Shown piece after piece: positions 8,593 through 31,283 of a stretch of DNA of 37,176 nt. The DNA is taken from the NCBI GenBank assembly GCA_004124465.1, contig SCKS01000002.1, positions 1 to 37,176 on the forward strand. Direction: 5' to 3'. The position numbers and the translations under genes were made by a program. The stretch is from Fidelibacterota bacterium. Lineage in GTDB: Bacteria; Fidelibacterota; Marinisomatia; Marinisomatales; S15-B10. A model generated the notes under the pieces. It was not told where the DNA came from. It saw nothing but the letters and a program-made list of their open reading frames with translations, and ran no database searches. Each line of letters begins with the position of its first letter. The first letter of the stretch is position 1.

Positions 8593-10083
8593 GTGATCCG
8601 AGGTAAGCTAATCTTCACGTTAGGCGTGATGCTGGCGGGCGTATTGAGCGCAAGCACTGTATCCGTCTATTACCCCAACGATCCCGACAAGCGGGAGTCC
8701 ATCAAGACCTTTGATACGGGTAACACAACCTATATTTCCGGCGCAGATTTTGTGCGTGTGCTCGATGCCGGTATCTTTAGCAATGTAGCAAGAGGAAAGA
8801 TTGTCATTTACTTCGGAGGTCACAGGATCAAAGTCTCCGCCCACAGCAGTTTCGTTGTGATCGATGATCATGTTTACCAGATGCCGTCCTACGCCCTTTC
8901 CGATGGTTCGGACATTTATCTCCCTATGCGGCCGTTCATAGCCATCCTCCACCGCCACGCCGCACCGGGAGTCAGTTATGACACCGGCCTCAACAGTGTG
9001 GTGGTTGAGCTCATTACTCACAATATCAAAGATTTGAGTATTGAGGAAAAAGCCAACGGAACTGTCATCCGCCTAGCGTCAACTCGCCAGTTTGAGGATG
9101 GCTCACTTACCGGCTGGTCAGCGCAAAACAGATGGTTTTATCTCACTGTATCAGGCGGCATTGCCGATTCCGTCGCACTTCGGAAGGCAAAGTTGGGCGG
9201 TGTCGTCCGAGGTATAACCGTTGATCAGACAGGTCGTTCAGTTCAAGTTGCGTTTCAGCTTAGAACTGAAATCGAGAACTTTGAAATCTATCAAAATAAT
9301 GCTCCCAACGAGATTGTGCTGACCCTGAGAACTCCCTTAAGCTACAGTGCCGAAAAGATCAAAAAACTGAGAGACGCCTGGTACATTGACACAATTGTCA
9401 TAGATGCAGGGCACGGCGGAAAAGACCCCGGAACCACGGGCAAGTATGGCTTGAGAGAAAAATTCGTCACACTTGATATTGCCAAACGCCTTGGGAAACT
9501 CATTGAAAAAAATACAAATGCAAAAGTAGTCTACACCAGAGACGAGGACGTATTTATTCCTCTTTGGAAGCGGACCAAGGTCGCCAATGAAAGCAACGGC
9601 AAGCTCTTTATCAGTATCCATGCAAATGCCAATCCTAACAGGCGTATAAAAGGATTTGAAACATTTATTCTGAGGCCAGGAAAAACAGCTGACGCTGTGG
9701 AAGTAGCTGAGCGCGAAAACAGTGCAATAAAACTTGAGGAAGAAGCATCCCGGTATGATCACTTGACGGAAGACAGCTTTATCATTGCTTCTCTGATGCA
9801 AAATGCCTTCATGAAAGAGAGTGAAGACCTGGCCGCCATGGTTCAATCTGAATTGCGGAAGAGTATTCCTTCACCCGATCGAGGTGTCAAACAGGCTGGA
9901 TTTTATGTTCTTATTGGAGCTTCAATGCCTCACGCCTATCTGGAAGTTGGTTTCCTTTCAAATCCTCTTGAAGAAAAGCAACTCCGCAAGCCCGGTTATC
10001 GCCAAAGTATCGCACAAGCCGCCTTCAAAGGCCTCCGCAGCTTCAAGGACAAATATGAGCGCGTCTTGGCTGACGAAAGCTAG
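8593..10083 (+). CDS. N-acetylmuramoyl-L-alanine amidase with AMIN-like domain
   Basis: A periplasmic zinc amidase that cuts the bond between muramic acid and the stem peptide, used for cell separation and wall remodelling. The 496-residue protein has a signal peptide (1-20), a copper-amine-oxidase-like/AMIN-like region (about 38-245) for septal or wall targeting, and an Amidase_3 domain (265-490). Zinc ligands are His274 (DAGHGG), Glu289 and His343 (SIHANA); the catalytic glutamate is Glu451 (LEVGFLSN). The GTG start at 8593 gives the signal peptide directly but has no Shine-Dalgarno. It heads the plus-strand run through dtd. Confidence 0.9.
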   Translation: MIRGKLIFTLGVMLAGVLSASTVSVYYPNDPDKRESIKTFDTGNTTYISGADFVRVLDAGIFSNVARGKIVIYFGGHRIKVSAHSSFVVIDDHVYQMPSYALSDGSDIYLPMRPFIAILHRHAAPGVSYDTGLNSVVVELITHNIKDLSIEEKANGTVIRLASTRQFEDGSLTGWSAQNRWFYLTVSGGIADSVALRKAKLGGVVRGITVDQTGRSVQVAFQLRTEIENFEIYQNNAPNEIVLTLRTPLSYSAEKIKKLRDAWYIDTIVIDAGHGGKDPGTTGKYGLREKFVTLDIAKRLGKLIEKNTNAKVVYTRDEDVFIPLWKRTKVANESNGKLFISIHANANPNRRIKGFETFILRPGKTADAVEVAERENSAIKLEEEASRYDHLTEDSFIIASLMQNAFMKESEDLAAMVQSELRKSIPSPDRGVKQAGFYVLIGASMPHAYLEVGFLSNPLEEKQLRKPGYRQSIAQAAFKGLRSFKDKYERVLADES

Positions 10084-11491: not shown

Positions 11492-12739
11492 ATGGATGTA
11501 ACACAGTTACAGGGCCAGAAGATCAAGGACTTAACCAAGCTCGCTCAAGAGATGGAAGTCCCCGGTTATTCCGGTCTGAAAAAACAGGAATTGATCATGC
11601 GCATTCTCGAGACCAGTGCCGAGAAAGAGGGGAAACTGTTTGCTTCCGGTGTTCTCGAAGTGATGCAGGAGGGGTACGGTTTCTTGCGATCGCAGGATTA
11701 TAATTACCTCCCGGGGCCAGATGACATTTACGTCTCCCCTTCCCAGATAAAAAGGTTCAATCTCCGCACAGGTCATCTGGTGGCTGGACAGATACGCCCT
11801 CCCAAGGATAACGAACGTTTCTACGCCCTACTTAAAGTTGAAACGGTGAACGGCGAGGGACCGGATCAGGTCAAAAAAGCCATTCTGTTTGACAACCTCA
11901 CACCGCTCTACCCTGAGGAGCGAATAAAGCTTGCAGGGCAGCCGAAAGGATTTTCTATGCGGATACTTGATCTCATGTCACCTATCGGCAAAGGTCAGAG
12001 AGGACTAATTGTCGCCCAACCAAAGACAGGTAAAACAATTCTTCTACAAAAAATTGCCAATACAACGCTTGAGAACCATCCTGAAGTTAAGATTATTGTG
12101 CTGCTCATTGCGGAGCGGCCGGAAGAAGTGACAGATATGGAGAGAAGCGTTGATGCAGAAGTGGTAAGCTCCACTTTTGATGAACCGCCAGAACGGCACG
12201 TTCAAGTGGCGGACATGGCTTTGGAAAAGGCCAAACGGATGGTAGAGTACGGCCATGATGTGATGATACTTCTTGACAGTATCACCCGCCTCGGCCGTGC
12301 ACACAATGCGGTAATCCCTCACAGCGGAAAAATCCTTTCAGGTGGTGTAGATGCCAATGCGCTTCATCGTCCCAGGCGCCTCTTCGGAGCGGCCCGGAAC
12401 ACCGAAGAAGGAGGAAGCCTCACAATTATTGCAACAGCACTCATTGATACGGGCAGTAGAATGGATGATGTCATTTTTGAAGAGTTTAAGGGTACCGGTA
12501 ATATGGAACTCGTTCTAGACCGCCGCCTCAGTGACCGTCGCCTGTTCCCCTCCTTTGACCTTATACGTTCAGGGACACGGAAAGAAGAACTGTTACTTTC
12601 CAAAAAAGAACTTTCAAGAGTTTGGATTCTTAGAAAGATTTTAAATGACATGACACCCATAGAAGCAATGGAGTTTCTCCTTGATAGAATGAAGCGGACA
12701 GGAAATAATGAAGAATTTTTGGATACGATGAATAATTAA
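11492..12739 (+). CDS. rho: Transcription termination factor Rho
   Basis: The hexameric RNA helicase that ends transcription at rut sites. Residues 1-45 are the Rho N-terminal helical domain ([20 protein letters not shown]), 48-120 the cold-shock-like RNA-binding domain with the RNP-like GYGFLR (61-66), and 125-415 the RecA-like motor. The Walker A loop is AQPKTGKT (175-182), Walker B is ILLDSITR, and the Q-loop ([14 protein letters not shown]) and R-loop (FKGTGNMEL) are complete. At 415 residues it lacks the large N-terminal insertion found in many Bacteroidetes and Actinobacteria. The 98-base gap upstream (11394-11491) shows no clear promoter or hairpin terminator. A Cas6-like gene starts seven bases after its stop. 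Confidence 0.98.
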
Positions 12740-12746
12740 TCAATGT

Positions 12747-13649
12747 TTGTCTGTATACCGTCTTGTGTCTAAGGATCAATCTTATATAAAGTCAGTCGTA
12801 GTTCGCCTCTCCACCGATAAACCTGTTAGAAAAACGTCTTATCAGGTTAAGGGCGTTCTCATGAAAGAATTTTCGGATAATCCCATCATCCCTTTTATCA
12901 ACGGCTCTTACCGCAATAACTATCTGTATCCCCGAGTCCAAGTTAAGATACTCAATGAACAGATTTATCTCATTGGAATCAAGGAAGGTGTGGAGCCCAT
13001 TGAGTCCATTGCTGAAAAACTGGACATTATGAACTTCGGCAATATCACTTTCAAGGTCGAGGATGTGGTCACTGAAGTGAGCGATGATGGTTTGGGATCA
13101 ACCGATAAGACAATCCAGTACAAATTTCTCACTCCGTGGATCGCCCTCAACCAGATTAATCTGAAACGCTATAAAGCGTTAACAGACAAAGATCGCTTAA
13201 TACTGCTAAGACGTCTGCTGAGTCAGAATATCGCTTTCGTTGGAAAGGAGGTCGGTCTCGCTCTAGAAGAAAGAATTTTCGTAGATCTCAATCTGGAATC
13301 ACTCCAGGCCAACTTGATGGATGAAGGAAAAATGGGCTGTTTTAACGGTGAATTCAGAACCAACTTTATTTTGCCAAACTTTATCGGCTTGGGGAACGGA
13401 ATCACCAAGGGTTACGGTGTGCTCTTCAGTCAATTCAATTCGGCGGACTTTTCCTCTGAAGAAACAGAACTGACAAACAGCCAGTCTGACAATCAAGAAG
13501 CAGTGGGAGAATTGCCCGAAGGTTGGGAGGATGAAGCCATTGATCCGAATGACATCCCTCGAAGTAAGCGGCTCAAGAACACCGAAAAAGAGCAAGAGGC
13601 AAACGATCCTAATTTCAACACTGCCAAATATCACTCCAAAACGCATTGA
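12747..13649 (+). CDS. Orphan Cas6b-like RAMP protein without catalytic histidine
   Basis: A 300-residue protein whose layout matches Cas6b-type CRISPR RNA endonucleases as I recall them. The N-terminal half (15-115) has KGVLMKEFSDNP, YPRVQVKI (61-68) and LIGIKEG (75-81). The C-terminal half (125-228) begins LTPWIALN, and ends NFxLP-like with the glycine-rich loop GLGNGITKGYG (214-224), the RAMP RNA-binding signature. Residues 232-300 are an acidic, low-complexity tail. Cas6 enzymes normally use histidine; here the only histidines are 295 and 300 in the tail, so cleavage by the usual route is unlikely. No CRISPR repeats or cas genes are nearby. The TTG start lies seven bases after rho, suggesting one transcript. 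Function unknown; an RNA-binding role is inferred. Confidence 0.6.
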   Translation: MSVYRLVSKDQSYIKSVVVRLSTDKPVRKTSYQVKGVLMKEFSDNPIIPFINGSYRNNYLYPRVQVKILNEQIYLIGIKEGVEPIESIAEKLDIMNFGNITFKVEDVVTEVSDDGLGSTDKTIQYKFLTPWIALNQINLKRYKALTDKDRLILLRRLLSQNIAFVGKEVGLALEERIFVDLNLESLQANLMDEGKMGCFNGEFRTNFILPNFIGLGNGITKGYGVLFSQFNSADFSSEETELTNSQSDNQEAVGELPEGWEDEAIDPNDIPRSKRLKNTEKEQEANDPNFNTAKYHSKTH

Positions 13650-13664
13650 TCTCGGGTAATCATT

Positions 13665-14849
13665 ATGATTGCTGAAAGAGTCCAGCGGATCCAGCCGTCT
13701 TTCACTTTGGAGATGACAGCGCGGGCCGCTGATTTAAGGAATAACGGTGTAGATGTAATTGACCTTGGCGTCGGGGAACCCGATTTCAACACACCTGAAA
13801 ATATCCGCCAGGCGGCCATCCGCGCCATGGCTGACGGTCATACAAAGTACACACCCGGAAGAGGAACACTTGAACTTCGCGAAGCGATATGTAAAAAACT
13901 GGAGCGCGACAATAATCTGGATTATACCCCAGATCAGATCATTGTTTCAAACGGTGCCAAGCATTCCCTCAGCACTCTCTGTCAGGCTGTATTAAACCCG
14001 GGAGATGAAGTCATTGTCTTTGCACCTTACTGGGTTTCTTTTCCTGAATTTATCCGGCTGGCAGATGGAGAACCTGTCATTGTAAAAACTATAACCGAGG
14101 ACAATTTTTCTCCTGACTGGAATGATCTTGAATCAAAAGTTACACCTAAGATTTCCGCAATAATTATTAACTCGCCTTCCAATCCGACGGGAGCAGTCTG
14201 GGGCAAAGAGACAGTTACAAAACTTCTTAAACTTGCCGCCAAACACGATTGGCTGGTGATCTCTGACGAATGCTACGAACGCCTCGTATATGATGCACCC
14301 TTCACAAGCACAGAGGCCCTAAATGAAGTAGGAGCCAATGTGGTAACGATTCAGAGTTTATCCAAGACTTACGCCATGACTGGATGGCGGATCGGATACG
14401 CGGCCGGAGATGCTGCAATCGTCAGCGCTATGGCAAAAATCCAGGGGCAGGCGACATCTTGCCCCAACTCAATTGCACAAAAAGCGGCCGTGGAGGCACT
14501 CACCGGTGATCAGACTGAAGTTGAAACCATGCGCAATATCTTTGCGGAACGTCGGGATGCAATGATTCACCGCCTCAAAACTGTTCCCAACTTTTCCTGC
14601 ACCAAACCGGGGGGCGCATTCTATGCATTCCCCAATGTGAGTCACTACATCGGCTTAACCGCTCATGGGAAGATAATCGACAGTTCTTTTGCCTTCAGTG
14701 ATTATATTTTAGATTGTGCCAAGATGGTGACTATAGCCGGTTCCGGCTTCGGATTAGAGGGCTACATTAGGCTCTCATACGCCACCGACGAGGCAATTTT
14801 TTTGGAAGGCATCAACAAGCTTGAAAAAGCGTTAAGTGATCTAAATTAG
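13665..14849 (+). CDS. Pyridoxal-phosphate aminotransferase, aspartate aminotransferase type Ib
   Basis: A class-I aminotransferase that probably exchanges the amino group between aspartate and 2-oxoglutarate. The PLP lysine is Lys234 (SLSKTYAMTGWR); Asn173 (SPSNPTG), Asp201 and Tyr204 (SDECYE), Arg242 and the C-terminal substrate Arg369 (YIRLSYA) complete the active site. The 394-residue length, FNTPENIRQA and KYTPGRGTLELR match the Thermus/Bacillus subgroup, some members of which also use prephenate. The ATG at 13665 lies 15 bases after the Cas6-like stop. Family assignment is firm, substrate less so. Confidence 0.92.
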   Translation: MIAERVQRIQPSFTLEMTARAADLRNNGVDVIDLGVGEPDFNTPENIRQAAIRAMADGHTKYTPGRGTLELREAICKKLERDNNLDYTPDQIIVSNGAKHSLSTLCQAVLNPGDEVIVFAPYWVSFPEFIRLADGEPVIVKTITEDNFSPDWNDLESKVTPKISAIIINSPSNPTGAVWGKETVTKLLKLAAKHDWLVISDECYERLVYDAPFTSTEALNEVGANVVTIQSLSKTYAMTGWRIGYAAGDAAIVSAMAKIQGQATSCPNSIAQKAAVEALTGDQTEVETMRNIFAERRDAMIHRLKTVPNFSCTKPGGAFYAFPNVSHYIGLTAHGKIIDSSFAFSDYILDCAKMVTIAGSGFGLEGYIRLSYATDEAIFLEGINKLEKALSDLN

Positions 14850-14858
14850 AGGAATAAA

Positions 14859-15077
14859 ATGAAAACTGGGATTCATCCTGAATATACGCTCGGTACAGTG
14901 ACCTGCGCATGTGGAAACAAGTTCCAAGTGCGAAGTACCGTGGGCGATATGCGAGTGGAAATCTGCTCCGCATGCCACCCATTTTTCTCCGGTCAGCAAA
15001 AACTGGTTGACACCGCCGGCCGTATCGAAAAATTCAAAAAGAAATATGGAAAGCTGAACGCCAAAGGCGAACAGTAA
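14859..15077 (+). CDS. rpmE: Ribosomal protein bL31, zinc form
   Basis: A 72-residue component of the large ribosomal subunit that bridges to the small one. It starts MKTGIHPEY and carries four cysteines, C16-A-C18 and C36-S-A-C39, so it is the zinc-holding form. HPFFSGQQK and the C-terminal [14 protein letters not shown] are typical. The ATG has a good GAGGAA site five bases upstream. It is followed by a strong hairpin with a T-run before prfA. The rpmE-prfA-prmC order is widespread in bacteria. Confidence 0.97.
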
Positions 15078-15089
15078 CCAAACAAACAC

Positions 15090-15137
15090 AACGGTTTCTA
15101 GCGTCATCGGATAGAGATGGCCGGGGACCGTTTTTTT
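15090..15137 (+). terminator. Hairpin terminator between rpmE and prfA
   Basis: The outer stem pairs AACGGTTTC (15090-15098) with GGGACCGTT (15124-15132), with two wobble pairs. An inner stem pairs GTCATC (15103-15108) with GATGGC (15116-15121), and T-residues run to 15137. This is a convincing intrinsic terminator for the transcript ending at rpmE. It lies 16 bases before the prfA start, so prfA needs read-through or its own start, and the hairpin could also act as an attenuator. Confidence 0.7.
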
Positions 15138-15153
15138 ATGCCCGAGAACTTCT

Positions 15154-16224
15154 ATGAAAGATAAAGTCAAACAGATCATTGAAAAATACGAAGCTGTTAC
15201 TGAACAGCTAGCTAAACCTGAAATTGCGTCTGATCCGGATAGATACCGCGAACTGGCGAAAGAACATCACGACCTAAACCCTGTAGCCAAAAAAGGGAGC
15301 GAGTATATCAATATAACGGATCAAATTGATGAAGATGAAGCTGTTCTGAAAGGTGACGATGAAGAGCTGAAAGAACTGGTTCAAGAGGAGATTGAAGGAT
15401 TAAGAGACGAAGCCCTGAAGCTGGAAGAGGAACTAAAGGTCCTTCTGCTACCTAAAGATCCACTGGATGAAAAAAATACCATCATGGAGATCCGGGCTGG
15501 AACGGGCGGTGAAGAAGCAGCCCTTTTTGCTGCTGACCTTTATCGCATGTATGGCCATTTTGCGGAGCAAAACGGATGGGACATCAAACTGATTGCGGCA
15601 AATGTAACGGGAAACGGCGGCTACAAAGAGGTGATCTGCGCCTTCAAAGGTGACACTATTTTCGGTAAACTGAAATATGAGGGGGGCGTACATCGGGTGC
15701 AGCGTGTTCCCGCAACAGAGGGCAGCGGGCGCATCCACACATCTGCCGCTACTGTCGCCGTCCTGCCGGAAGCTGATGAGGTCGATATTAAAATCAATCC
15801 ACAAGACTTGCGTATCGACACCTTTCGGGCGTCAGGAGCGGGTGGCCAGCATGTGAATAAGACAGAGTCAGCTATCAGGATTACTCACATTCCCACCGAT
15901 ACAGTAGTCACCTGTCAGGATGAAAAATCTCAGCACAAAAATCGTGTGGCGGCAATGAAAGTTTTAAGATCCCGTCTTCTGGCTCGTGAGCGGGAAAAAC
16001 AGCAGTCAGAGCGAGCGGAGGCAAGAAAAACCATGGTGTCCACAGGAGATCGGAGTGCAAAGATCCGAACTTACAATTTTCCTCAGGGGCGGGTGACAGA
16101 TCACCGCATAGAATTGACCCTTTACAAACTTGAGGAGATTATGAACGGTGACCTCACCGAGCTCATCGAACAACTGAAAATTGCTGATCAGTTAGAGCAG
16201 TTAAAAGCGGAAAATCTCAGTTGA
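15154..16224 (+). CDS. prfA: Peptide chain release factor 1
   Basis: Reads UAA and UAG stop codons and triggers release of the finished protein. The codon-recognition tripeptide is Pro-Ala-Thr (186-188, VPATE), diagnostic for RF1 rather than RF2, and the catalytic GGQ is at 230-232 in [15 protein letters not shown]. An N-terminal coiled coil spans about 1-95. The 356-residue length is normal. It ends overlapping the TTG start of prmC, whose product methylates the GGQ glutamine. Confidence 0.97.
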
Positions 16225-17111
16225 CAAACCTGCCTCTACCCGCCACTGTTCAGGAAAATTTCACAGTGCAACGGGTTTTGGAAGAAAGTGTAAGATTGCT
16301 GACTGATGCAAGAACTGATGCACCGAAAGCTCAGGCGGAATGGCTCCTCCTCTCCCTCCTCAAACTTTCCAGATCTCAGCTCCACCTGGAAGCAGATCAC
16401 CGCTGTCTCACCCACCAACAAAAAAAAGTCTTTAGAGACTGGCTGAGACGTTCTGCTGCCGGTGAACCGGTTCAGTATATAACAGGTGAAACGGAATTTT
16501 TTGGTCTACCGTTCACTCTTACCGGGGATGTCCTTATACCGCGGCCCGAAACAGAGCGACTGGTTGAAATTGCAATTAATGAAGCAAATGAAAGCAAAGA
16601 ATTTTCCGTATTGGACATAGGTACTGGTTGCGGCTCTATTGCCGTCAGTCTCGCCTGCTCACTTAAAGAAATTTCTGTCACAGCAACTGACAATAACCGA
16701 AATGCCCTGAAGGTAGCACAACTGAACGCTAAGAAAAACGGCGTCGCTTCAAGGATTCAGTTCATCGATCATGACATTTTGAACGATGAGGTAGAAAATT
16801 GTTTTGATATCATCGTCAGCAATCCGCCTTACGTGCCGCTGAAAGAATATAAAGCACTTCAGGATAATGTCCGGTGTTTTGAACCGAGAGAGGCATTGAC
16901 AGAAGACGCTGACGGTCTAACTTTCTACAGAAGCTTTGCCGCCAAAGGGAAAAACTGGCTCCGGGAAGGCGGAATGATGATTTTGGAGGTGGGCTGTGGT
17001 AAACACCCATTACACGCCAAGGAACTATTTGAGTCAGCAGGGTGGACTGAGGTTGAGCTTTCTAATGACTACAACGGGGATCCGAGAGTGCTGAAAGCAA
17101 AGAGGCCATGA
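16221..17111 (+). CDS. prmC: Release-factor glutamine methyltransferase
   Basis: Methylates the glutamine of the GGQ motif in RF1 and RF2 using S-adenosylmethionine. The 296-residue protein has the N-terminal helical bundle (1-90), the PRPETE motif (108-113), the SAM loop [14 protein letters not shown] (132-145) and the catalytic NPPY (201-204). The TTG start at 16221 overlaps the prfA TGA as TTGA, a coupled arrangement; no better start is seen. Its last bases overlap the ubiA-like ATG at 17108. Confidence 0.95.
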
Positions 17112-17941
17112 AGAGCGTCTTGGCCACATTGAGGCTCTTCAGGCCCGTAAACCTTTTGCTTGGTGCAATGATGGTCACAGTTACGGCGGCGCTGGTTGAC
17201 GCTCTGAACCAGACCGATCTTCTCATGAAAGGAATTTTTGTAGTAATGTCTTTCACAGCCGCAGCTAACGCATTTAATGATTATCGCGATCTGGAAACTG
17301 ATAAAATCAACAGAACGAACAGGCCGTTACCAAGAGGTGACCTTGCCCCAGAAACTGCATTGATACTCTCCATCCTGCTTTTCATGATAGGTGCGGGGAT
17401 CTCATTTACAATAAACACAGGAGCTTTTATCCTTGCCGCAGTTGTGGCCCTTCCACTCATGGTGGTCTACAGCTTATGGCTGAAAGGGACAATTTTGATT
17501 GGAAACATGATTGTAGCTGTAATCATTGGATTGTCATTTGTGTTTGCGGGAGCGCTGTTTGGTGAATTGGACCGGATGATAATGCCATCACTACTGGCAT
17601 TTGGGTTTACAATGGTCCGAGAATTCATCAAAGATATGGCTGATGCGGATGGAGACCGTGCAGCAGGGTTCATCACTTTTCCTGTTAAGTTCGGAATGGA
17701 AAAATCGGTAAGGATCGCCATTTTTTTGACGGTTCTTCTCATGGCACTTTTAGTCGCTCCGTATTTAATGAACATCTACAGTGAAAAATATCTTGTGGCG
17801 GCACTTCTGGGAATTGGTATTCCACTCTCATATATCATAAGTTTGCTCGTGAGATCTCCCTCCTCAAACAACTGTCATACCGCTTCGCAGATACTGAAAG
17901 CCTCTGTTTTTCTTGGTTTGCTGGCCGTTTATCTCGGCTGA
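17108..17941 (+). CDS. UbiA-family prenyltransferase, geranylgeranylglyceryl-phosphate transferase-like
   Basis: An integral-membrane prenyltransferase with about eight hydrophobic segments in 277 residues. The two aspartate-rich motifs are NDYRDLETD (57-65) with the following INRTNRPLPRG, and D-x2-D-x3-D at 176-183 (KDMADADGD). The block around the first motif and GFITFPVKFG after the second resemble archaeal digeranylgeranylglyceryl phosphate synthases more than UbiA or MenA of quinone synthesis. The acceptor could be a glyceryl phosphate, a quinone ring or a tetrapyrrole; no companion gene here decides. It overlaps prmC and is followed four bases on by dnaE. Confidence 0.82.
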   Translation: MKSVLATLRLFRPVNLLLGAMMVTVTAALVDALNQTDLLMKGIFVVMSFTAAANAFNDYRDLETDKINRTNRPLPRGDLAPETALILSILLFMIGAGISFTINTGAFILAAVVALPLMVVYSLWLKGTILIGNMIVAVIIGLSFVFAGALFGELDRMIMPSLLAFGFTMVREFIKDMADADGDRAAGFITFPVKFGMEKSVRIAIFLTVLLMALLVAPYLMNIYSEKYLVAALLGIGIPLSYIISLLVRSPSSNNCHTASQILKASVFLGLLAVYLG

Positions 17942-17945
17942 GGCC

Positions 17946-20900
17946 ATGGCTTCAGAATTCATACATCTCCACAACCATACAGATTACAGCCTTCTTGATG
18001 GTGCTCAGAAAATACCCACACTATTAGATACAGTTACCGATCTGGGTATGGATGCCGTTGGCGTCACAGAACACGGCAATATGTTTTCCGCTGTCGCTTT
18101 TTACAAAGCAGCAAAAAAAGCAGGCGTCAACCCGATTATCGGCTGTGAAGCGTACGTAGCACAGGGTGACCGTTTTGACAAAACACCCAAACGGGACGGC
18201 GGATGGGGAAATAACCATCTTGTTCTTCTGGCACAAAACTACACCGGTTACAAGAACCTCATGAAGCTCACAACAGCAGGCTATCTTGAAGGATTTTACT
18301 ACAGACCCAGAGTTGACAAAAATCTCCTAAGAGAATACAGCGAAGGGATTATTTGTCTCTCAGCGTGTTTGAAGGGAGAGATACAAGAGTACGCCGTCAA
18401 GGATGATCTGGATGGTGCCAAAAGGACTGCTCTAGAATATGCGGAAATCTTTCCCGGGAGGTTTTATCTGGAACTGCAGAATCACAGCATTCCGGAAGAA
18501 GAAGTCTCCCGAACCGTTGTTAGTAACTTGGCGCAAGAACTGAGCATTCCGCTGGTTGCCACCAACGACTGCCATTACGCACTGAAGGAGCACTGGGAAG
18601 CACACGACATCATGTTTTGCCTAGGAACAGGCAAAGAACGGAATGATCCCAATCGCCTGCGATACGCCACGCCAGAATTCTTCTTTAAATCTCAGGATGA
18701 GATGTGGAAGCTATTCAAAGATTATCCTGGAGCACTGGAAAACACTCGATTGATTGCCGATTCATGCGATCTGGAGTTACCGCTGGGGGAATACCTCTTG
18801 CCCACATTTCCAATACCTGAAGACGCTGGAGCAACCACGCCCGACGATTTCCTCTCACTCTCATGCCAACAAGGACTGAAAAATCTCTATCCGTCAGTCA
18901 CTCCTGAACTCAAATCTCGCCTTGACTATGAACTAGACGTTATCCAAAAAATGGATTTTGCCGGTTATTTTCTTATCGTTATGGATTTTGTCAAATATGC
19001 CAAGGATAACAACATTCCTGTGGGTCCCGGACGGGGTTCTGTGGCGGGAAGTCTGGTAGCTTATTGCCTCGGTATCACTACCATTGACCCCATAAAATAC
19101 AATCTGCTTTTTGAGCGATTCCTCAATCCCGAACGGATTTCCATGCCTGACATTGACATCGATTTTTGTTACGAGCGACGGTCCCATGTCATCGATTATA
19201 TCAAGGAGCGATATGGTGAAGATTCGGTAACTCAAATTATAACGTTCGGCAAATTGAAAGCCCGCCAGGTTGTCCGTGATGTAGGGCGTGTACTGGGAAT
19301 GAACTTGGGCGAGGTTGACAAAATAGCCAAATCCATCCCTGCCGGCCCCGGTATTTCTCTGGACTCAGCCCTAGAGATTAGTAGCGATCTTCAGAAACAT
19401 GCTGAAAAAGACGAGCAACACAAAGATCTGATCAATTATTCAAAAACACTGGAAGGAATGAATCGCCATGTGTCAACTCACGCCGCTGGGGTGGTGATAG
19501 CGCCGGGCGATCTCACCGATTATATCCCCCTATACAAATCACCGCAAGGCGACATTACCTCCCAGTATGACATGAAAGACCTAGAAGATTTAGGGCTTTT
19601 AAAAATGGACTTCCTCGGCTTGAGGAACCTCACAGTCATCGATCAGACAATAGCTCTTCTTAAAGAAAAAGGAATCAAACTTAATATTGAAAAGTTGCCC
19701 CTCGATGATGAAGCTGTGTATAAACTGTTTTCCAAGGGCAAGACCGTCGGCGTGTTTCAATTTGAATCCGCGGGCATGAGGGAATACCTGAAAAAATTGA
19801 AGCCAACATCAATTCAGGATCTCATTGCCATGAACGCTCTATACCGCCCCGGCCCCATGGAAAACATTGGCGAATTCATCAAACGAAAACACGGCAAAAA
19901 GAAAATCAAATACATTCATCCCGATCTGGAATCGATTCTTAAAGAGACTTACGGAATTATCGTTTATCAGGAACAGGTGATGCAGATTGCTAATAGCATC
20001 GCAGGTTTTTCACTGGCACAAGCGGATTTAATGCGCCGGGCCATGGGTAAGAAACAAAAGAAACTCATGGAAAGCCAAAAAGAGGACTTCATTAAAGGAG
20101 CAACTGATCAAGGTACGGATAAAAAAAAGGCGAAGGAAATCTATGATCTAATTGAGAAGTTTGCTCAATATGGTTTCAATAAAAGTCACAGTACCGCCTA
20201 CGCCTACATCGCCTACCAGACAGCCTATCTGAAAGCGCATCACTCTGCCGAATTTATGGCGGCAAACCTAACCAGTGAAATGACTAGCACAACTCGTGTA
20301 GTGACTCTCTTAAATGAATGTCAGAAGCTAAAAATCACCATCCATCCACCTGATGTAAACGAATCAGACATCAACTTCAAGGCTCTGGATGAAAAAACTA
20401 TCTCTTTCGGATTGAATGCTATAAAAAATGTCGGCTCAAAAGCTCTCAAGAATATTCTCTCCGCAAAAAATGAACAAGAACAGTTCACAACTCTGTACGA
20501 CTTTTGTGAACATCTCGACTTAAGGCTTGTTAACAAAAAGGTCCTTGAAAGTCTAGTGGCTTCCGGCGCTATGGATTCACTGGAGGGGAATCGAGCACAA
20601 CAATATGTTGCAGTCGAATCAGCGCTTAAGTTCGCCCAGCAGATGCAGGCTAACGCTGATGATAATCAATTTTCAATTTTTGGGGGTGAGACATCAGAAT
20701 CTCAGATAATTGCAAAACCCACTCTCCCAGACGTATCTGATTGGAGTGAGACTGAAAAGCTAAAGCGTGAGAAAGAGTTGATGGGCTTTTATCTCACAGG
20801 CCATCCACTGCTTGAATATTCTGATATCCTAGAGAATTATTCGAATTACGACTTTTCAGATGCTTCTGACGATACTGAGATAGAGCAGATCCGGGTTGGT

Positions 20901-21383
20901 GGAATCATACGGGACATTCGTCATCACTTTGACAAAAAAAATCGGCAGATGGCTTTCTTTAATCTAGAATGCCTGGGGGGTTCTGTTGATGTACTTGTTT
21001 TTCACGAAACATTTACAAATTATAGACAGTTCATAAGTGACGACGGTCTCATTTTCATCAAAGGTCGCCCGACCTCACGCCTGTCTGATGATACACCAAA
21101 AATGATTGCTGAATCCATTGAATCACTTGATGAAGTTCAGGGAAGAAATCCGTCCACAGTCAATATTGTAGTAGAGGTTGATAAAATGAAAGAAGAGGAT
21201 GTGAATGCCCTCTACCGGTTAACCAAGGGGCACGCCGGTAATTCACCCATTTTTTTTCACCTCTACGAGGACGAGGGAAACGGAAAAAAGTTTTACGCCA
21301 AAACTGTTAAGGTCACACCGGATGAAGCATTTATCGGAAAGCTCAAGGGGCTTTATGGCGATGAGAACGTCTGGGTGGAGTGA
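17946..21383 (+). CDS. dnaE: DNA polymerase III alpha subunit
   Basis: The replicative polymerase, 1145 residues. Order: PHP domain (1-280), palm with [10 protein letters not shown] and catalytic Asp402 and Asp404 (PDIDIDF) and Asp555 (KMDFLGLRN), fingers, helix-hairpin-helix region and a C-terminal OB fold (from about 980). The PHP domain keeps many possible metal ligands (His7, His9, His43, Glu68, His91, and NDCHY later), unlike the degenerate E. coli domain; Asp is replaced by Glu42 in TEHGN. The ATG at 17946 is chosen because [13 protein letters not shown] follows, as in other DnaE proteins; an upstream in-frame GTG-like/ATG extension from 17913 lies inside the UbiA gene. It overlaps dtd by four bases. 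Confidence 0.97.
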
Positions 21384-23920: not shown

Positions 23921-25384
23921 GTGACACCGCCCCTCAGACAACTCACTCGGCAAACTTTGGTCTACGGCGCCGGCAATGTGCTGACCAGACTTGTCACTTT
24001 TCTCCTGTTACCTCTCTTTACTAATGTGCTTACTCCCGGGGAGTACGGTCTCGCCACTCTTCTCTACGTTTTTCTCGGCTTTATGAATATTGTCTATCAC
24101 TACGGGTTAGACACCGCGTTTATGCGTTACTATAATGAGGCCGACGGCCCAGACGCCCAGCGATCACTCTTTTCAACAGCGCTCTGGCTCAGTCTGGGGA
24201 CAAGTTGCGTGCTGTCATTTCTGATTTTGTCAGGCTCATCCGGCCTGTCATCCCTCCTGTTGGGGGGCGGTCAATATACTCATCTTTTTAAGCTGGCGGC
24301 CGGAATCCTCCTTCTGGATGCCATCAGCCATGTCCCCTTTGCCCTTCTGAGATTGGAGGGTAGGGCCACTCTTTTCGTCTCAATCAAGCTGATGAATGTG
24401 ATCACCACCCTTGGGATGAATATATATCTCGTAGTGATGAAAGGGATGGGACTTGACGGTATTTTCCTGAGCGTTGCCGCGGCTTCGGCAGTGACTACCT
24501 TTTCCGTTTTGTCTGCAACGGCCGGATCTTTGCAATTTGCTTTTAATAGCAGTAGTGTCAGCTCCCTCTTAAAATTTGGTCTCCCTTTTTTGCCTGCGGG
24601 CCTCGCTTCCATCGCTATGGAGTCCATAGACCGATATATTCTTGCCAGCCTCACTGATGCCGCTACAGTAGGTATCTACACCGCCGGCTACAAGCTGGGA
24701 ATCTTTATGCTTCTCATCACAACCGCATTTCAGTATGCCTGGCAGCCTTTCTTTCTGAAAGCCGGTAATAATCCCGAATCCAAAACGCTTTTCGCCCGTG
24801 TCTTTAGCTACTTTATGGTGATTGCCCTATTTGTCTGGACAGTGATCACACTCTTTATATCTGAGATTGTCCGGCTGAATGTGGCTGGAGTATCACTCAT
24901 CGGTCCCGCTTTTGTGGAGGCGCAGTCTATTGTCCCCATTATTCTCATGGCCTATGTTTTTCAGGGGGCTTATCTAAACTTTCTTCCCGGAATCTATTTT
25001 GAGGAAAAGACAAAATACATTGCCGTTATTACCGGTCTCAGTGCGGCCGTAAATATAGGAGTAAACTTCGCCCTCATCCCAATCTATGGTATAGCAGGTG
25101 CCGCCTACGCCACACTGGCGGGTCACGGCACCATGGCTGTCACAACCTATTTTACCTCAAAAAAACTGTTCCCCGTCCTTTACGACTGGTTCAAACTGTT
25201 AAGAACGGTTACCGCTGTGGTCATTGCCCTGGGAACAGCTCACTTTTTCGATTACACGCTCCTCGGGCGGATTGCAGGTGCCTCAGCTTTCACAGGTGCC
25301 CTTTTTATGCTGAAAGTGATAACTCCCGGTGAAGTGAGTAAAATCATCTCAGTTTTCCAGCCACCTTCAAAAGATACAAACTGA
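23921..25384 (+). CDS. Polysaccharide flippase, Wzx/MOP family
   Basis: A 487-residue membrane protein with about 12-14 hydrophobic helices, of the kind that moves lipid-linked glycans across the inner membrane. The start TRQTLVYGAGNVLTRLVTFL and then LLPLFTNVLTPGEYGLATL is characteristic of the MOP flippases (polysaccharide_synt family), as are the IDRYILASLTDAATVGIYTAGYK stretch and the second-half repeat. The start is GTG at 23921 without a clear ribosome site. It opens a run of glycan genes and is followed directly by a glycosyltransferase whose ATG comes right after its TGA. Confidence 0.9.
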   Translation: MTPPLRQLTRQTLVYGAGNVLTRLVTFLLLPLFTNVLTPGEYGLATLLYVFLGFMNIVYHYGLDTAFMRYYNEADGPDAQRSLFSTALWLSLGTSCVLSFLILSGSSGLSSLLLGGGQYTHLFKLAAGILLLDAISHVPFALLRLEGRATLFVSIKLMNVITTLGMNIYLVVMKGMGLDGIFLSVAAASAVTTFSVLSATAGSLQFAFNSSSVSSLLKFGLPFLPAGLASIAMESIDRYILASLTDAATVGIYTAGYKLGIFMLLITTAFQYAWQPFFLKAGNNPESKTLFARVFSYFMVIALFVWTVITLFISEIVRLNVAGVSLIGPAFVEAQSIVPIILMAYVFQGAYLNFLPGIYFEEKTKYIAVITGLSAAVNIGVNFALIPIYGIAGAAYATLAGHGTMAVTTYFTSKKLFPVLYDWFKLLRTVTAVVIALGTAHFFDYTLLGRIAGASAFTGALFMLKVITPGEVSKIISVFQPPSKDTN

Positions 25385-26371
25385 ATGACCAGCCCCAATC
25401 CTAAGGTTCTCCTCTTTTCCACACAGAAACAGTCATTTATTGAAGATGACGTCAGGTTGTTGGAAGAATTCAGCGACGTGAAATGGATCTGTGCCCACGG
25501 TCTCTTCACCGCAGTACGCATTAAGTGGTCCATGCTGTTTAGCGATGTAGGAATTGCGTGGTTTGCATCTGTTTACAGCGCTATTCTGGTTTTCACGGCA
25601 CGGTTCTTGCGTAAGACATCCATCATTATTGTGGGCGGTGCCGACCTCATTACAGATTCACATCTCGGATATGGTCTTCTTCTGTCACCCTGGAAGCGGC
25701 CTTTCATCCGGTATGCCTTGAGAAGGGCTACACATGTTCTTCCCACTTCGGAATATTTGAGACGGGCAGCCTTGGAGGTGGGAGAGTATGAAGGTGACAA
25801 TTTGTCAACTGTACCGCCCGGTCTCGATAGTAACTTTTGGCAACCTGGGGGCCAAAAAGAAAATATAGTCTTGACTGTGGCCAAATGCACCACAAAGGAC
25901 CGTATCCAAATCAAGGGAGTTGATCTGCTGCTTCAGGTAGCAGAAAAGATGAGCGAAACCTCTTTTCAGCTCATCGGAGTTGAGGAGAATTTTCTCTCCA
26001 AAAACAGCTTCTTCGTTCCAAAAAATGTTGTTGTCTCTCCTTCTATGTCGCAACAGAAGCTACTCAGTTATTACCAGCGGAGTGCTGTATACTGCCAGTT
26101 GAGCAGGGTAGAATCCTTTGGCATTGCTACGGCTGAAGCCATGCTGTGTGGATGCATCCCCGTAGTCACCGATGTGGGTGGTTTGTCGGAGACTATAGGT
26201 GACATCGGCCACACTGTCCCTCCGGAAAATGTCGGTGCCGCTTCGGAGGCCATTCACAAAGCTTTGAAGGAAGCAAATAGTTCCAGTGGTGAAAAATGTC
26301 GAAACCGTGCCGCCGAAAAATTCACTGTGGAACAGAGAAAGGAATCTTTTAAAGCAATGGTGTTTTCTTGA
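25385..26371 (+). CDS. Glycosyltransferase family 4-type
   Basis: A 328-residue GT-B fold transferase, likely adding a sugar to the envelope glycan at the cytoplasmic face. The C-terminal nucleotide-sugar domain shows LSRVESFGIATAEAMLCG, with the E-x7-E pair, and PVVTDVGGLSETIG, typical of GT4. The N-terminal half has SIIIVGGAD and an S-E-Y-x-R-x-A acceptor-side block, with an amphipathic arginine-rich stretch that could touch the membrane. The protein is slightly short for the family. It starts on the base after the flippase stop and overlaps the second flippase. Confidence 0.88.
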   Translation: MTSPNPKVLLFSTQKQSFIEDDVRLLEEFSDVKWICAHGLFTAVRIKWSMLFSDVGIAWFASVYSAILVFTARFLRKTSIIIVGGADLITDSHLGYGLLLSPWKRPFIRYALRRATHVLPTSEYLRRAALEVGEYEGDNLSTVPPGLDSNFWQPGGQKENIVLTVAKCTTKDRIQIKGVDLLLQVAEKMSETSFQLIGVEENFLSKNSFFVPKNVVVSPSMSQQKLLSYYQRSAVYCQLSRVESFGIATAEAMLCGCIPVVTDVGGLSETIGDIGHTVPPENVGAASEAIHKALKEANSSSGEKCRNRAAEKFTVEQRKESFKAMVFS

Positions 26372-27762
26372 ACCGAATGGGATCGAATATTCTTTCTCTC
26401 ACAGGCGCGGATGCCGCAAGTCGATTCCTCGGTTTTTTCGCCGTAGCCTATCTAGCGAGAACCGTGGGCCCAGAGGGAATGGGACTCCTAGCAGCCGGGA
26501 TGGGAATATTGACATGGGGTACCATCCTAGCCGAGGCAGGCTTGCCAACACTGGGCACAAGAACGGTAGCAACTTCAAACGCTGCATCCATGAATCTTGT
26601 ACACAGGTTTTTTACTACACGTTTGGTTCTTTCTCTGGGGGTACTCATTTTATTCGCTCCTATTCTTTTTTTTACGCTGGATACACTACGGCTACGCAAC
26701 ATCACTCTTATCTATCTTTTAGCACTTTTGCCATCAGCCCTTGTTCTGGAGTGGGTCTTTCAAGGATTGAGAAAAATGACCATCCTTGCTACAGGTAGAA
26801 TCGTGGCGGCGGTGAGTTATCTCTTTTGGGTACTTATGTTTGTGAGGAGTGAATCATCCATTATTTGGATCCCGGTGGGATGGGTAGCCAGTGTTGTGGC
26901 TCAAAGCATCTATCTCTGGAAACAGTACGGTGGCGTAAATGAAACTGAATCGACAGATGTCCCTCCGGCATTAAACCTCATCAAAACAGCTTTCCCTCTC
27001 GCTGTGGCTGGACTAGTGGCACAGGTTATCACTCATTTCCCGGTCGTCTATCTGGGCATAACCGATCCCCATGAAGGTGGTCTTTTCAGTGTTGCTTACC
27101 GGGTCATTGTATTACTTCTGGTGGTGGACCGGGTGTTCTACACAATCTTTTTCCCTTCAATTACAAGATATCTGAAGATCGGTGGAGAAGACCTCTTCAC
27201 ACATTTCAACCGAACCCTGAAACTGGTGACGCCAGTTACTCTCTATATAGCCATCATAGCAATAATAGGGAGTCAACAAATCTTACCCGCCGTTTTCGGC
27301 AGTGAATTCAACCAATCAGCCCTCATTTTCCAGATATTGGCCCTCTATTTTGTCTGCTCCGTCATCAACAGTGTATTTACTTTCACACTGATTGGTGCCA
27401 AAAAAGAGAAGATTTATCTTAACTCTATTCTTCTGGGCGGAGCGGGCTTCTTTGGTATCATGCTACTTCCAGGGCCAGTGCCATCATCACACTTTGCTGC
27501 CATGGGTTTGGTTCTCTTTCAAGTCATCTCCCTCCTTGTGATGATGCGGGAAGTGCAAACCTTTATTTCTTTTTCTGTTGCCAGGTCTCTTCTATTGCCC
27601 ATTGTTGCCGGCGGCGTTCTCATGGGGGTCTTTTCGCTCACTTACCCCTTATCACCTCTGCTTACATTTCTTGCTTCTTTGGTAATAACACCGGTTGTTC
27701 TTTATAAATCGGTCGGAATTACATCAGAAGAAAAATCATACTACATTAAATCAATCTCATGA
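26368..27762 (+). CDS. Second polysaccharide flippase, Wzx/MOP family
   Basis: A 464-residue membrane protein of the same superfamily as the gene at 23921 but clearly divergent in sequence. SLTGADAASRFLGFFAVAYLARTVGPEGMGLLAAGMGIL at the start is a typical Wzx/RfbX first helix pair (read here in part). The TTG at 26368 overlaps the glycosyltransferase stop; an ATG at 26377 is an alternative. Two flippases in one cluster imply two different lipid-linked substrates, or one that works as a regulator or helper. Confidence 0.88.
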   Translation: MNRMGSNILSLTGADAASRFLGFFAVAYLARTVGPEGMGLLAAGMGILTWGTILAEAGLPTLGTRTVATSNAASMNLVHRFFTTRLVLSLGVLILFAPILFFTLDTLRLRNITLIYLLALLPSALVLEWVFQGLRKMTILATGRIVAAVSYLFWVLMFVRSESSIIWIPVGWVASVVAQSIYLWKQYGGVNETESTDVPPALNLIKTAFPLAVAGLVAQVITHFPVVYLGITDPHEGGLFSVAYRVIVLLLVVDRVFYTIFFPSITRYLKIGGEDLFTHFNRTLKLVTPVTLYIAIIAIIGSQQILPAVFGSEFNQSALIFQILALYFVCSVINSVFTFTLIGAKKEKIYLNSILLGGAGFFGIMLLPGPVPSSHFAAMGLVLFQVISLLVMMREVQTFISFSVARSLLLPIVAGGVLMGVFSLTYPLSPLLTFLASLVITPVVLYKSVGITSEEKSYYIKSIS

Positions 27763-29312
27763 GACTCTCTGTCGGAATTACACACCTCACACCAGCCTGG
27801 AAAATTCTACTGGAGCAGATCGCACCCCCTTGTGAAGAACTCAACAGCACAATCGACTGGTCGACTGAAAACTATGGATGTATCATTGTCTCTTCCACCG
27901 TCAGCGTTTCGGTGAAGGAAAAGCTTAAGCATTATCTGACTGATGGTGGTTCACTATTGTTGGAAACTGAGGCTGCTAAACAGATACTTGGAACCAATAG
28001 CGAACCTGCATTTGTGGATTATATCGATACTACCAATGATTCACTTTTCAGCTCTGTGGCATCTGGATCTGTTGGGCGAAAACTGAACCTCCCTTCCAAG
28101 GCTACACAGCTCAAGGAGAGGCACGGGAGATATTTGGTTGAGGAGACCGCTGTTGGCAAAGGCTACGTTATAATACTTCCCGGCGGAATGATAGATTCTA
28201 TATTATCATGGGGCTGCACCCGAAGAAGTTTTCCCTCCCATGGGCCTTTGCTCCCCTCTGAACGGGTGGCCAAAGTGTCCAAGCGGACCATCCGAGATAT
28301 TGTTAACCGATCGTTACAAGAATTGTTCTGGCGACGGGATCTCCCTTTCGTATCCCTCTCTCCTTTTCCAGATGGAGAAGATTTGCTATTCAGTTTTCGT
28401 GTTGATACCGACTTCGCCTCACAGAAAGCAGTTGAAACACTTTATGAGCTATGTAAAAAACATGACGTCCCCGCCACCTGGTTCGTTGAGACAGGTAGTT
28501 GCCAAGAATGGGTTGATCGGTACGGCAAGATGGAAGGTCACGAAATTGGCCTGCATTGCTTCAAACACAGGACCTTCAATAACTATACCAAAAATGAGCT
28601 GGATATGCGAACAGGAACATCCATTCTTCGAAAAAATGGCATCACTCCCAGAGGCTACGCCGGGCCATTCGGCGAATGGAACACAACTCTGGCAAAAGCT
28701 CTAGAGCACCGCGGTTTCGAATATTCTTCAGAATTTGCCTTGGACTATGACAATCTCCCTTTCTATCCTTTCCTAGGTGAACGGTCATCATTTGTTATGC
28801 AAATTCCCATCCATCCCATCTCCACCGGCACGTTGCGTAACGCCCGCCATTCAACAGAAGAAATGAAAAATTACTTTGAGATAATTATGGAAGATCACCT
28901 CGCAGACCGGTTGCCGCTATTCATTTATGATCACCCCGCCAATCCTGATCACGAAACTCTGGATTGGCTTTTCCAGACAGTTAAGGATAGAAAAATACCC
29001 GCTATGACCATGGGTCAATATGCAGATTGGTGGAAAATCCGCACAGAAACTCATTGGTCAGCACGACTGGAAAACGGGCGTCTCCAACTCTCTAGCAGTA
29101 ACTTGGGTGATTCTGTGAAGATCGAGGTTTTTCAATCAGATGGACGTCACACAATTGCTGAAAAGAACAGCGATCTCGAATTGAGCAAAACAGCCTGGCG
29201 CACGACAGAGGCAAAAACAAACAGACAGCCACACATATCTATTCTACATCGATTGAATCGTAAGATGATTTTCAACGATATTCTCCACACTTACTGGAAG
29301 TACAAATTGTGA
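27759..29312 (+). CDS. Two-domain polysaccharide deacetylase family protein
   Basis: A 517-residue protein with no signal peptide. Residues 1-185 form an alpha/beta domain (VGITHLTPAWKILL, CIIVSSTVS, DGGSLLLET, GYVIILPGG) that looks like a glutamine-amidotransferase or ThuA-like fold. Residues 215-430 are a NodB/CE4-like deacetylase: FRVDTDFAS with the metal aspartates, EIGLHCFKH with the metal histidines and GPFGEWN. A C-terminal segment follows (about 440-517) with no recognised motif. It probably removes acetyl groups from a glycan precursor in the cytoplasm, or has adopted another role. Overlaps on both sides (ATGA, GTGA) tie it to the cluster. Confidence 0.82.
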   Translation: MRLSVGITHLTPAWKILLEQIAPPCEELNSTIDWSTENYGCIIVSSTVSVSVKEKLKHYLTDGGSLLLETEAAKQILGTNSEPAFVDYIDTTNDSLFSSVASGSVGRKLNLPSKATQLKERHGRYLVEETAVGKGYVIILPGGMIDSILSWGCTRRSFPSHGPLLPSERVAKVSKRTIRDIVNRSLQELFWRRDLPFVSLSPFPDGEDLLFSFRVDTDFASQKAVETLYELCKKHDVPATWFVETGSCQEWVDRYGKMEGHEIGLHCFKHRTFNNYTKNELDMRTGTSILRKNGITPRGYAGPFGEWNTTLAKALEHRGFEYSSEFALDYDNLPFYPFLGERSSFVMQIPIHPISTGTLRNARHSTEEMKNYFEIIMEDHLADRLPLFIYDHPANPDHETLDWLFQTVKDRKIPAMTMGQYADWWKIRTETHWSARLENGRLQLSSSNLGDSVKIEVFQSDGRHTIAEKNSDLELSKTAWRTTEAKTNRQPHISILHRLNRKMIFNDILHTYWKYKL

Positions 29313-30346
29313 AAATCACCCTCGCCAGCTACCATACCGTTAACATGAAACACGGTGGGCCCCGCACTCAGATTCTGCAGACAAAGCAACATCTTGAGGG
29401 GCTGGGTCATCAGGTAAAACTTCATGAAACATGGGACGGGAAACCGGATCTGGAGTCGTCAGATCTTTTCCATCTTTTCGCCTCCAACTTCGCTGTCTAT
29501 GATCTGGCCCGGTTTCTCCATTCTGAAGAGATGCCTTTTGTTACCAGTCCTATTTTTTTTACACGGCGCTCCCCCGGGGTGATCCGATGGGTCCTTAGGG
29601 CAGACACTCTTATGAGAAAACTGGCACCCGGCCTTTGGTCCGACTACGGGTTCACACGAGACATCTGTCGCTGGTCGGCGGCAGTCCTTCCCAACACTGA
29701 ATCTGAGCGATCTCTAATCATTGATGGGCTGGGTATCTCAGTCGAGAAGATAGAGGTGATCCCCAACGGGGTGGAAGAGCGGTTTCTTTATGGTGATCCT
29801 GAGCCGTTTGTAAAGAAGTACGGAGTTCAGGATTTCATTCTGAATGTGGGTCACATTGGTGTAGAGCGAAAGAATACCCTTTCCCTTATTCGCGCTCTAG
29901 AAACAATTGATCACCCGGCTGTCATCATCGGAAAAGTGACTGATACTGAAGAAGGACAAGCTTGCCTGGCGGAAGCAGGAAAAAACAATAATTTGATTAT
30001 CATCAAAGGGCTCGATCACGATTCTGACCTTTTGGCATCGGCCTATGCTGCGGCAAAGGTGTTCGCTCTCCCAGCCCGGTATGAAACACCAGGCATCGCC
30101 GCTCTAGAGGCAGCACTGGCAGGGGCAAACATTATAATCACCCCTCATGGCGGCACTCATGATTATTTTCAGGAGATGGCTATCTATGTAGATCCTTACT
30201 CTGTCAATGATATCAGAGCGGGGCTGGAAAAGGCCCTAAATGCACCGCCAAATGACAAACTGAAAAAACATGTCCAACGCAACTTTCTTTGGCAGCGTGT
30301 GGCTGAAATGTCGGTTAATATGTATCAGTCCGTTCTAAGTCAGTAG
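29309..30346 (+). CDS. Glycosyltransferase family 4
   Basis: A 345-residue GT-B transferase. The N-terminal NMKHGGPRTQILQTKQHLEG is the usual GT4 acceptor-domain glycine loop, and LPNTESERSLI with VIPNGVEERF links to the C-terminal domain. There ARYETPGIAALEAALAG carries the E-x7-E motif and ITPHGGTHDYF follows. The GTG start at 29309 overlaps the deacetylase stop. It likely adds one sugar to the repeat unit. Confidence 0.92.
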   Translation: MKITLASYHTVNMKHGGPRTQILQTKQHLEGLGHQVKLHETWDGKPDLESSDLFHLFASNFAVYDLARFLHSEEMPFVTSPIFFTRRSPGVIRWVLRADTLMRKLAPGLWSDYGFTRDICRWSAAVLPNTESERSLIIDGLGISVEKIEVIPNGVEERFLYGDPEPFVKKYGVQDFILNVGHIGVERKNTLSLIRALETIDHPAVIIGKVTDTEEGQACLAEAGKNNNLIIIKGLDHDSDLLASAYAAAKVFALPARYETPGIAALEAALAGANIIITPHGGTHDYFQEMAIYVDPYSVNDIRAGLEKALNAPPNDKLKKHVQRNFLWQRVAEMSVNMYQSVLSQ

Positions 30347-30365
30347 TGTACCATCTCATCAGTTA

Positions 30366-31283
30366 ATGAAAGTTTCCGTCATTGTCTCTGCTTACAATGC
30401 TGCCGATATCCTAGGCACAACCCTCCCTCCCCTCCTTAGTCAGGACTACAGTTCAGAGAAACTTCAGATCATTGTTGTAAACGATGCTTCAACAGATGGG
30501 ACAGCCGCTCTACTCGCTTCTCCCAAATGGACGGACAGATGCGAGATTATTCACCATGAAACAAACCTGGGCCGTTGCGCCACACGAAATTCTGGTCTTC
30601 ACGCCGCCACTGGTGACCTGGTCATATTTATCGATTGCGACATTGAGGTAGGGAATGATTTTGTTTCACGCCATGTTGAACGACACTCCGACCCGCAGGT
30701 GACAGGTCTGTTGTCTAATCTTCAGCCTGCTATTTCCCCTTTGCGGCAAAAGTATCATCGCTATCTCTTTCACGGCCGCCGGGGTGCGAAAACCGTTGGC
30801 GGAGAAACGCCTCTTCCTTACCGATATTTCATCCTCACCGCAACATCCATACAGCGATCAGCACTGGAGGAAACAGGAGAATTCAAGAAAGAACTGACGG
30901 GCTACGGCATCGATCTTCACTACGCCTACCGCCTTTGGAAGAACTTTCCTGAAAATCTTTTCTACGAGCCCGATATTATTGTGAAACAGCACAAACTTAA
31001 AACTTTTCCTCTAGCCTTATCTGACTTTGGTAACTACGGCGCTTCCAATCTCCCCATTATATTGGATGAATTTCCTGAACTAGGAAGGAATATGGGCATC
31101 GATTTTGTAAACGGATCAAATAGTTTAAAGCGTTGCGCTGGAGCCTTGCTATTTAACCCTTTAACCCGGGGAGTGGGACGGCTATTAAAAGCCCTTTTCC
31201 CGTCCCCCATTTGCAATCCTTTCATCCGGTACTTAATGGTTGACGCTGTTGTGACAGGATACAGGCTTACTTTGAAATCATAA
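30366..31283 (+). CDS. Glycosyltransferase family 2
   Basis: A 305-residue GT-A transferase. The nucleotide-binding VSVIVSAYNAADIL is at the N-terminus, followed by VVNDASTDGT and the metal-binding D-C-D (FIDCDIEVG) near residue 94. ATSIQRSALEETGEFKKELTGYG resembles the acceptor-side ED-like region. The C-terminal 40 residues are hydrophobic and may associate with the membrane. The ATG at 30366 is 19 bases after the previous gene. It is the last clear glycan gene before ppx. Confidence 0.9.
   Translation: MKVSVIVSAYNAADILGTTLPPLLSQDYSSEKLQIIVVNDASTDGTAALLASPKWTDRCEIIHHETNLGRCATRNSGLHAATGDLVIFIDCDIEVGNDFVSRHVERHSDPQVTGLLSNLQPAISPLRQKYHRYLFHGRRGAKTVGGETPLPYRYFILTATSIQRSALEETGEFKKELTGYGIDLHYAYRLWKNFPENLFYEPDIIVKQHKLKTFPLALSDFGNYGASNLPIILDEFPELGRNMGIDFVNGSNSLKRCAGALLFNPLTRGVGRLLKALFPSPICNPFIRYLMVDAVVTGYRLTLKS

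Follow-up and report, generated by a model that had tools for sequence, protein, structure and literature searches.

The window, a stretch of 37,176 nucleotides, carries the gene for the transcription termination factor Rho (415 aa) at positions 11492-12739 of the plus strand, an open reading frame (ORF) that shares 71-73% identity with rho on named contigs of Neomarinimicrobiota and KSB1. A Cas6b-like gene follows on the same strand, and behind it stands a gene for an aspartate-type aminotransferase (13665-14849, plus strand), which is the usual downstream neighbor but lies outside the conserved rho-gene pair. The stretch from 13665 to 21383 encodes this aminotransferase, prfA, prmC, ubiA, and dnaE, as judged from their sequence and conserved order. 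The Cas6b-like frame lies at 12747-13649, where a sequence-only reading of this DNA had placed it, and is open from a TTG at 12747, 7 nt past the rho stop. In the column of residue 7, rho-linked Cas6b-like proteins have ATG in 46 of 81 cases and GTG in 8 of 81, and the window has GTG. This suggests that the start is probably GTG 12765, 25 nt past the rho stop, rather than TTG 12747, giving a protein of 294 aa (12765-13649, plus strand). Thus, the spacing of seven bases after rho that had been described applies to the TTG-opened frame but not to the probable start. No plus-strand terminator-like site was found between rho and the Cas6b-like gene.

The window contains no CRISPR-like array and no tandem or dispersed repeats, and no cas gene was detected by a Pfam scan of 20 other ORFs up to position 33816, in keeping with the earlier description of a gene without CRISPR surroundings. 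A search for Rfam RNAs in the window likewise returned none. Positions 23921-31283 hold a polysaccharide biosynthesis cluster with two flippase-like proteins, three glycosyltransferases, and a polysaccharide deacetylase-like protein. At a related locus (L165, genome G144), the aminotransferase behind the gene, at 997-1386, matches residues 1-44 and 306-394 only and has an internally deleted or misassembled look.

Profile, fold, and tree all identify the product of the ORF at 12747-13649 as a true Cas6b homologue. Of the 300 residues of the ORF, 14-105 match Cas6b_N (12786-13061, plus strand; PF17955, E 7e-12) and 118-226 match Cas6b_C (13098-13424, plus strand; PF17262, E 8.7e-28); both Pfam halves exceed their curated cutoffs (97.3 and 45.8 bits versus 39.4 and 25). 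The protein is 28% identical to Methanococcus maripaludis Cas6b of PDB entry 4z7k (phmmer E 2.2e-26). Its AlphaFold model (pLDDT 85.9, pTM 0.83, and pLDDT above 90 in the core) has a predicted tandem ferredoxin fold, and the best Foldseek matches, by many orders of magnitude, are the Cas6b structures 4z7k and 4z7l (E 1.9e-18, TM 0.81 by target length). The proposal of a Cas6b-type RAMP with both halves is therefore borne out by profile and by the suggested check with AlphaFold and Foldseek, which pointed to no other family. The glycine-rich loop GLGNGITKGYG (residues 214-224; 13386-13418, plus strand) is intact, as had been noted, and its glycines G216, G222, and G224 are present in all 81 rho-linked sequences. 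R56, R63, K67, Y125, W131, N161, and N206 are, together with the loop glycines, near-invariant in these sequences. A search of IMG/VR confirmed no viral homologues.

What the protein lacks is the catalytic HNH segment, the site of which is occupied by IIPFING (residues 47-53; 12885-12905, plus strand) in an alignment with CRISPR-type Cas6b and 4z7k. The two catalytic histidines of M. maripaludis Cas6b are presumably H38 and H40 in the numbering of 4z7k. The second of these is absent from 81 of 81 rho-linked sequences but present in 8 of 10 CRISPR-type Cas6b proteins, and the position of the first is mostly proline in the 81 rho-linked sequences. The sequence here is LIHNHxENGxxRYxYPxIQFK in CRISPR-type Cas6b from this phylum and IVPM-LDGxYRxxFLYPRVQVK in the rho-linked proteins from the order of the window, and the segment is one to two residues shorter than the CRISPR-type in every rho-linked member. 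The only histidines of the window protein are 296 and 300, which agrees with the observation that none precedes residue 295. The catalytic histidines are thus lost throughout the rho-linked clade, and no member with conserved histidines beside CRISPR was found in it. Two histidines have been implicated in catalysis by M. maripaludis Cas6b (PMC3652601). Loss of histidine is nevertheless not proof that cleavage is lost, because the Sulfolobus enzyme SsoCas6, whose active site has no histidine, cleaves with the help of lysines and an arginine (PMC3652601).

Beyond the loop, the protein ends in a C-terminal tail (residues 227-300; 13425-13646, plus strand) that is specific to the window's order, as a comparison of 81 tails shows. 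Long tails of about 72-164 residues past the loop occur in this order only, and in other classes the tail is short or absent. The tail has low pLDDT except for one motif, the GWEDEAIDPNDIPRSKR region (residues 251-270; 13497-13556, plus strand), which is predicted to be ordered, with a pLDDT of about 90 in the window protein and about 91 in the equivalent stretch of the homologue at locus L016. Its parts are, in order, FNPxxF adjoining the core, IDxxDVPKP (pLDDT about 90 in two different proteins), a variable linker that is acidic in the window's genus and mostly basic otherwise, VLSEEFDIEE in many members, and the end N[FY]N[ST]xxYHxKxH; the linker and the end are predicted to be disordered. 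FN-S/T-xx-Y-H-x-K-x-H ends nearly all tails of the order, in the window as FNTAKYHSKTH (residues 290-300; 13614-13646, plus strand), which contains both histidines. The acidic character ascribed to residues 232-300 holds within the window's genus (17 D/E versus 9 K/R/H), but in most of the order the tail is net basic. In close pairs the tail is under weaker constraint than the core (by dN/dS), and its make-up resembles a series of short binding motifs. Besides the Cas6b-like gene, the YHxKxH end has one match in genome G003 and two in G034, which may be due to chance.

The rho-linked gene is a phylum-wide feature and not a local oddity, and is larger in extent than first claimed. A protein search found a Cas6b-like homologue in 52 of 61 relatives. 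The phylum is taken to be Neomarinimicrobiota because its rho resembles that of the named contigs L032 and L033, which also carry the pair. Within a sample of 199 genomes of the phylum, the Cas6b_C profile has matches in 101; 91 matches lie on the strand of rho and begin 331-755 nt after it ends, an offset measured to the C-terminal domain, and six more adjoin a rho fragment, bringing the carriers to 97 of 199. Cas1 is present in 12 of the 97 carriers and absent from 85, including genomes more than 95% complete. It was found neither in the window's own assembly (77% complete) nor in six sampled members of the family, and no CRISPR array was found in the rho loci that were read. The proposed survey of adjacency in relatives thus places the gene directly after rho in nearly half of the phylum's sampled genomes, most of them without Cas1. 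Ten CRISPR-type Cas6b matches lie away from rho in ten genomes; six are on a contig with Cas1, and an array is present in the fetched stretch for four of the ten. Genomes with CRISPR often encode a separate HNH-type Cas6b within that locus. At 8700-9383 of locus L150 (G021:C12), next to Cas1 and an array of 18 units, there is a highly diverged Cas6-like protein that lacks the HNH segment seen in the other CRISPR-type copies.

No such pair turned up outside this phylum in the loci and genomes searched. Among the 80 best rho loci, some with short flanks, only L032 and L033 carry the gene, and both belong to Neomarinimicrobiota. Twenty other genomes yielded two Cas6b matches of CRISPR-type score with no rho nearby, of which the complete one keeps FHNH. 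No rho-Cas6b pair was found in 39 genomes from the phylum of a Calditrichota locus, and the sister phyla KSB1 and Ignavibacteriota were represented by few genomes.

Several lines of evidence indicate that the gene has descended with rho. All rho-linked sequences fall on one side of a branch with 99/97 support, with the CRISPR-type Cas6b proteins opposite. Distances among the Cas6b-like proteins correlate with those among the Rho proteins (r 0.735), and none of 2000 permutations was as high (permuted maximum, 0.19). The two trees have 21 of 40 splits in common, deep ones included, which argues against transfer. Values of dN/dS in close pairs are 0.02-0.20, as expected of a gene under purifying selection. 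When the rho tree is rooted with other phyla, the carrier family f19 branches first and eight changes are needed, so that one early gain and about seven losses are probably involved and the gene probably predates the radiation of the phylum; separate gains in place of one early gain remain formally conceivable. In lineages that lack the gene, the aminotransferase comes immediately after rho (f15, f16, and several other families) or other genes take that place (f22, f23, f25, f27, and f28).

The association with rho is more stable than that with the other neighbors. In wide loci (Cas6b_C matches minus the CRISPR-type ones), the rho-gene junction is kept in 40 of 40 cases, a figure that owing to this choice of loci describes the rho-linked clade, while the folC-rho junction is broken in 10 of 36 (kept in 26) and the gene-aminotransferase junction in 11 of 38 (kept in 27), counts in which breaks that occur in relatives cannot be taken as independent. 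Family f23 has other genes in place of both outer neighbors, with ubiA-dnaE downstream. The inner junction thus outlasts both outer ones, which suggests that rho and the gene form a conserved unit and upholds the stable setting that had been proposed, here across the phylum. No member of the rho-linked clade was found away from rho in the 199 genomes. The reverse does not hold: rho is common without the gene and persists after its loss, so Rho appears not to need the Cas6b-like protein, and at the thresholds used no Rho position separates carriers from noncarriers. Rho evolves relatively fast in the loss lineages f15 and f16 but not in three other testable loss lineages; the raised rate is limited to two small-genome lineages and is confounded. 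The stable adjacency could largely reflect plain vertical inheritance.

Some side observations concern Rho and RNase E/G. At loci L220-L228 (f15) and in f16, Rho evolves at an unusually high rate compared with the aminotransferase next to it. Some families without rho-linked Cas6b have a second, diverged Rho-like gene (G071:C15:904-1986, 48% identical), and second rho matches were also seen in G066, G082, G091, and G099, some of which may be split genes of draft genomes. Co-occurrence with RNase E/G is nearly universal and therefore uninformative. RNase E/G (e.g., G000:C85:6635-7441) is short across the phylum, with frames mostly of about 500-560 aa, which leave no room for a long scaffold tail.

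Homology to Cas6b, loss of the HNH segment, rho-like descent, purifying selection, and stability of the junction together give strong support to a CRISPR-independent exaptation, and we regard domestication of Cas6b beside rho as very probable. The descendant now appears to be an ordinary cellular RNA-binding protein. For its role, the best explanation is one that we favor only tentatively: an ancestral Cas6b would have settled permanently behind rho ahead of the phylum's diversification and would have become a CRISPR-independent RNA binder with little or no cleavage, serving as an accessory of Rho-dependent termination. The protein would be made with Rho from one transcript, would bind RNA with the two ferredoxin folds and the glycine-rich loop that it has kept, and may have a substrate in common with Rho, namely nascent, untranslated RNA. 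It could guide Rho, shield RNA from Rho, or cap RNA ends, and the flexible tail found in the window's order, with its conserved end, may recruit a partner. A stronger version, in which the processing enzyme became a dedicated Rho partner in the phylum's ancestor and would represent a new class of termination factor or antiterminator, reading RNA through a catalytically dead Cas6 fold, is conceivable but doubtful.

Of the readings considered, a non-cleaving RNA binder that works with Rho ranks first, before both an RNA binder independent of Rho and a nuclease with a rebuilt site. In the former, the protein would act elsewhere (e.g., on the ribosome or mRNA stability) and adjacency would be inherited gene order. 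Order alone could persist, as both genes are vertical, and seven loss lineages have rho but not the gene; however, the outer junctions were broken several times and the inner one never, and the lack of any clade member away from rho also speaks against this reading, which is rather doubtful. That the protein is still an RNA endonuclease, acting through a rebuilt site of basic and tyrosine residues (or of tail histidines in one order) on a cellular RNA, possibly one from Rho-dependent termination, is unlikely. The nearly invariant K/R35, R56, R63, and K67 adjoin the lost HNH segment, the window's order conserves two histidines in the tail, and the histidine-less crenarchaeal Cas6 that cuts through lysines and an arginine provides a precedent (PMC3652601). 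However, the active-site segment is shortened in every member, the tail histidines are missing in other classes and lie within a predicted-disordered stretch, and searches around the gene gave neither a conserved RNA nor a repeat that could serve as its target.

Two further possibilities carry little weight. Cas6 proteins bind RNA specifically, and the genes are adjacent and probably cotranscribed, so that the protein might bind the rho-gene transcript and set the level of Rho; this autoregulation is quite improbable, as the Rfam search of the window gave no conserved RNA element and streamlined lineages keep rho without the gene. The least credible reading, to which we give hardly any weight, is that of a regular CRISPR-type Cas6b that serves, in trans, arrays at other genomic sites. 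In some cases Cas6 is indeed provided in trans (PMC12669027), and 12 carriers do have Cas1, but the other 85 do not, although some are more than 95% complete, the catalytic HNH is gone from all rho-linked sequences, and genomes with CRISPR often hold an HNH-type Cas6b of their own.

Among known systems, the rho-linked protein resembles M. maripaludis Cas6b (4z7k/4z7l; PF17955 and PF17262) in its two RAMP/ferredoxin halves and glycine-rich loop but differs in lacking the HNH segment, in lying off CRISPR loci and fixed beside rho, in vertical descent with losses, and in its order-specific disordered tail. With SsoCas6 (PDB 4ill/4ilm; PMC3652601) it shares the Cas6 fold and the lack of an active-site histidine, but SsoCas6 is a working crRNA endonuclease of CRISPR-bearing cells and matches the predicted fold much less well (4ill, E 8.5e-6). 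CRISPR components have been reused outside adaptive immunity, and the exapted modules described in the excerpts of PMC8730458 and PMC12669027 are effector modules or mobile-element systems, with no mention there of a stand-alone Cas6 with a core transcription gene across a phylum. Searches of open-access papers turned up no account of a Cas6 that is orphan, exapted, or linked to rho. NusG, Rof/YaeO, and Psu are regulators or cofactors of Rho; the likeness proposed here, from genomic association, is in the level of action, Rho-dependent termination, and to our knowledge none of them has a Cas6 fold.

If the proposed history is true, one protein of CRISPR RNA processing would have been taken into core cell biology at an early date and passed on vertically since then, in a phylum mostly without CRISPR. 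It would make two questions open to direct test, that of Cas6 as a non-cleaving cellular RNA binder and that of lineage-specific RNA-binding partners of Rho. A Cas6 match in these genomes should accordingly not be counted as a CRISPR system.
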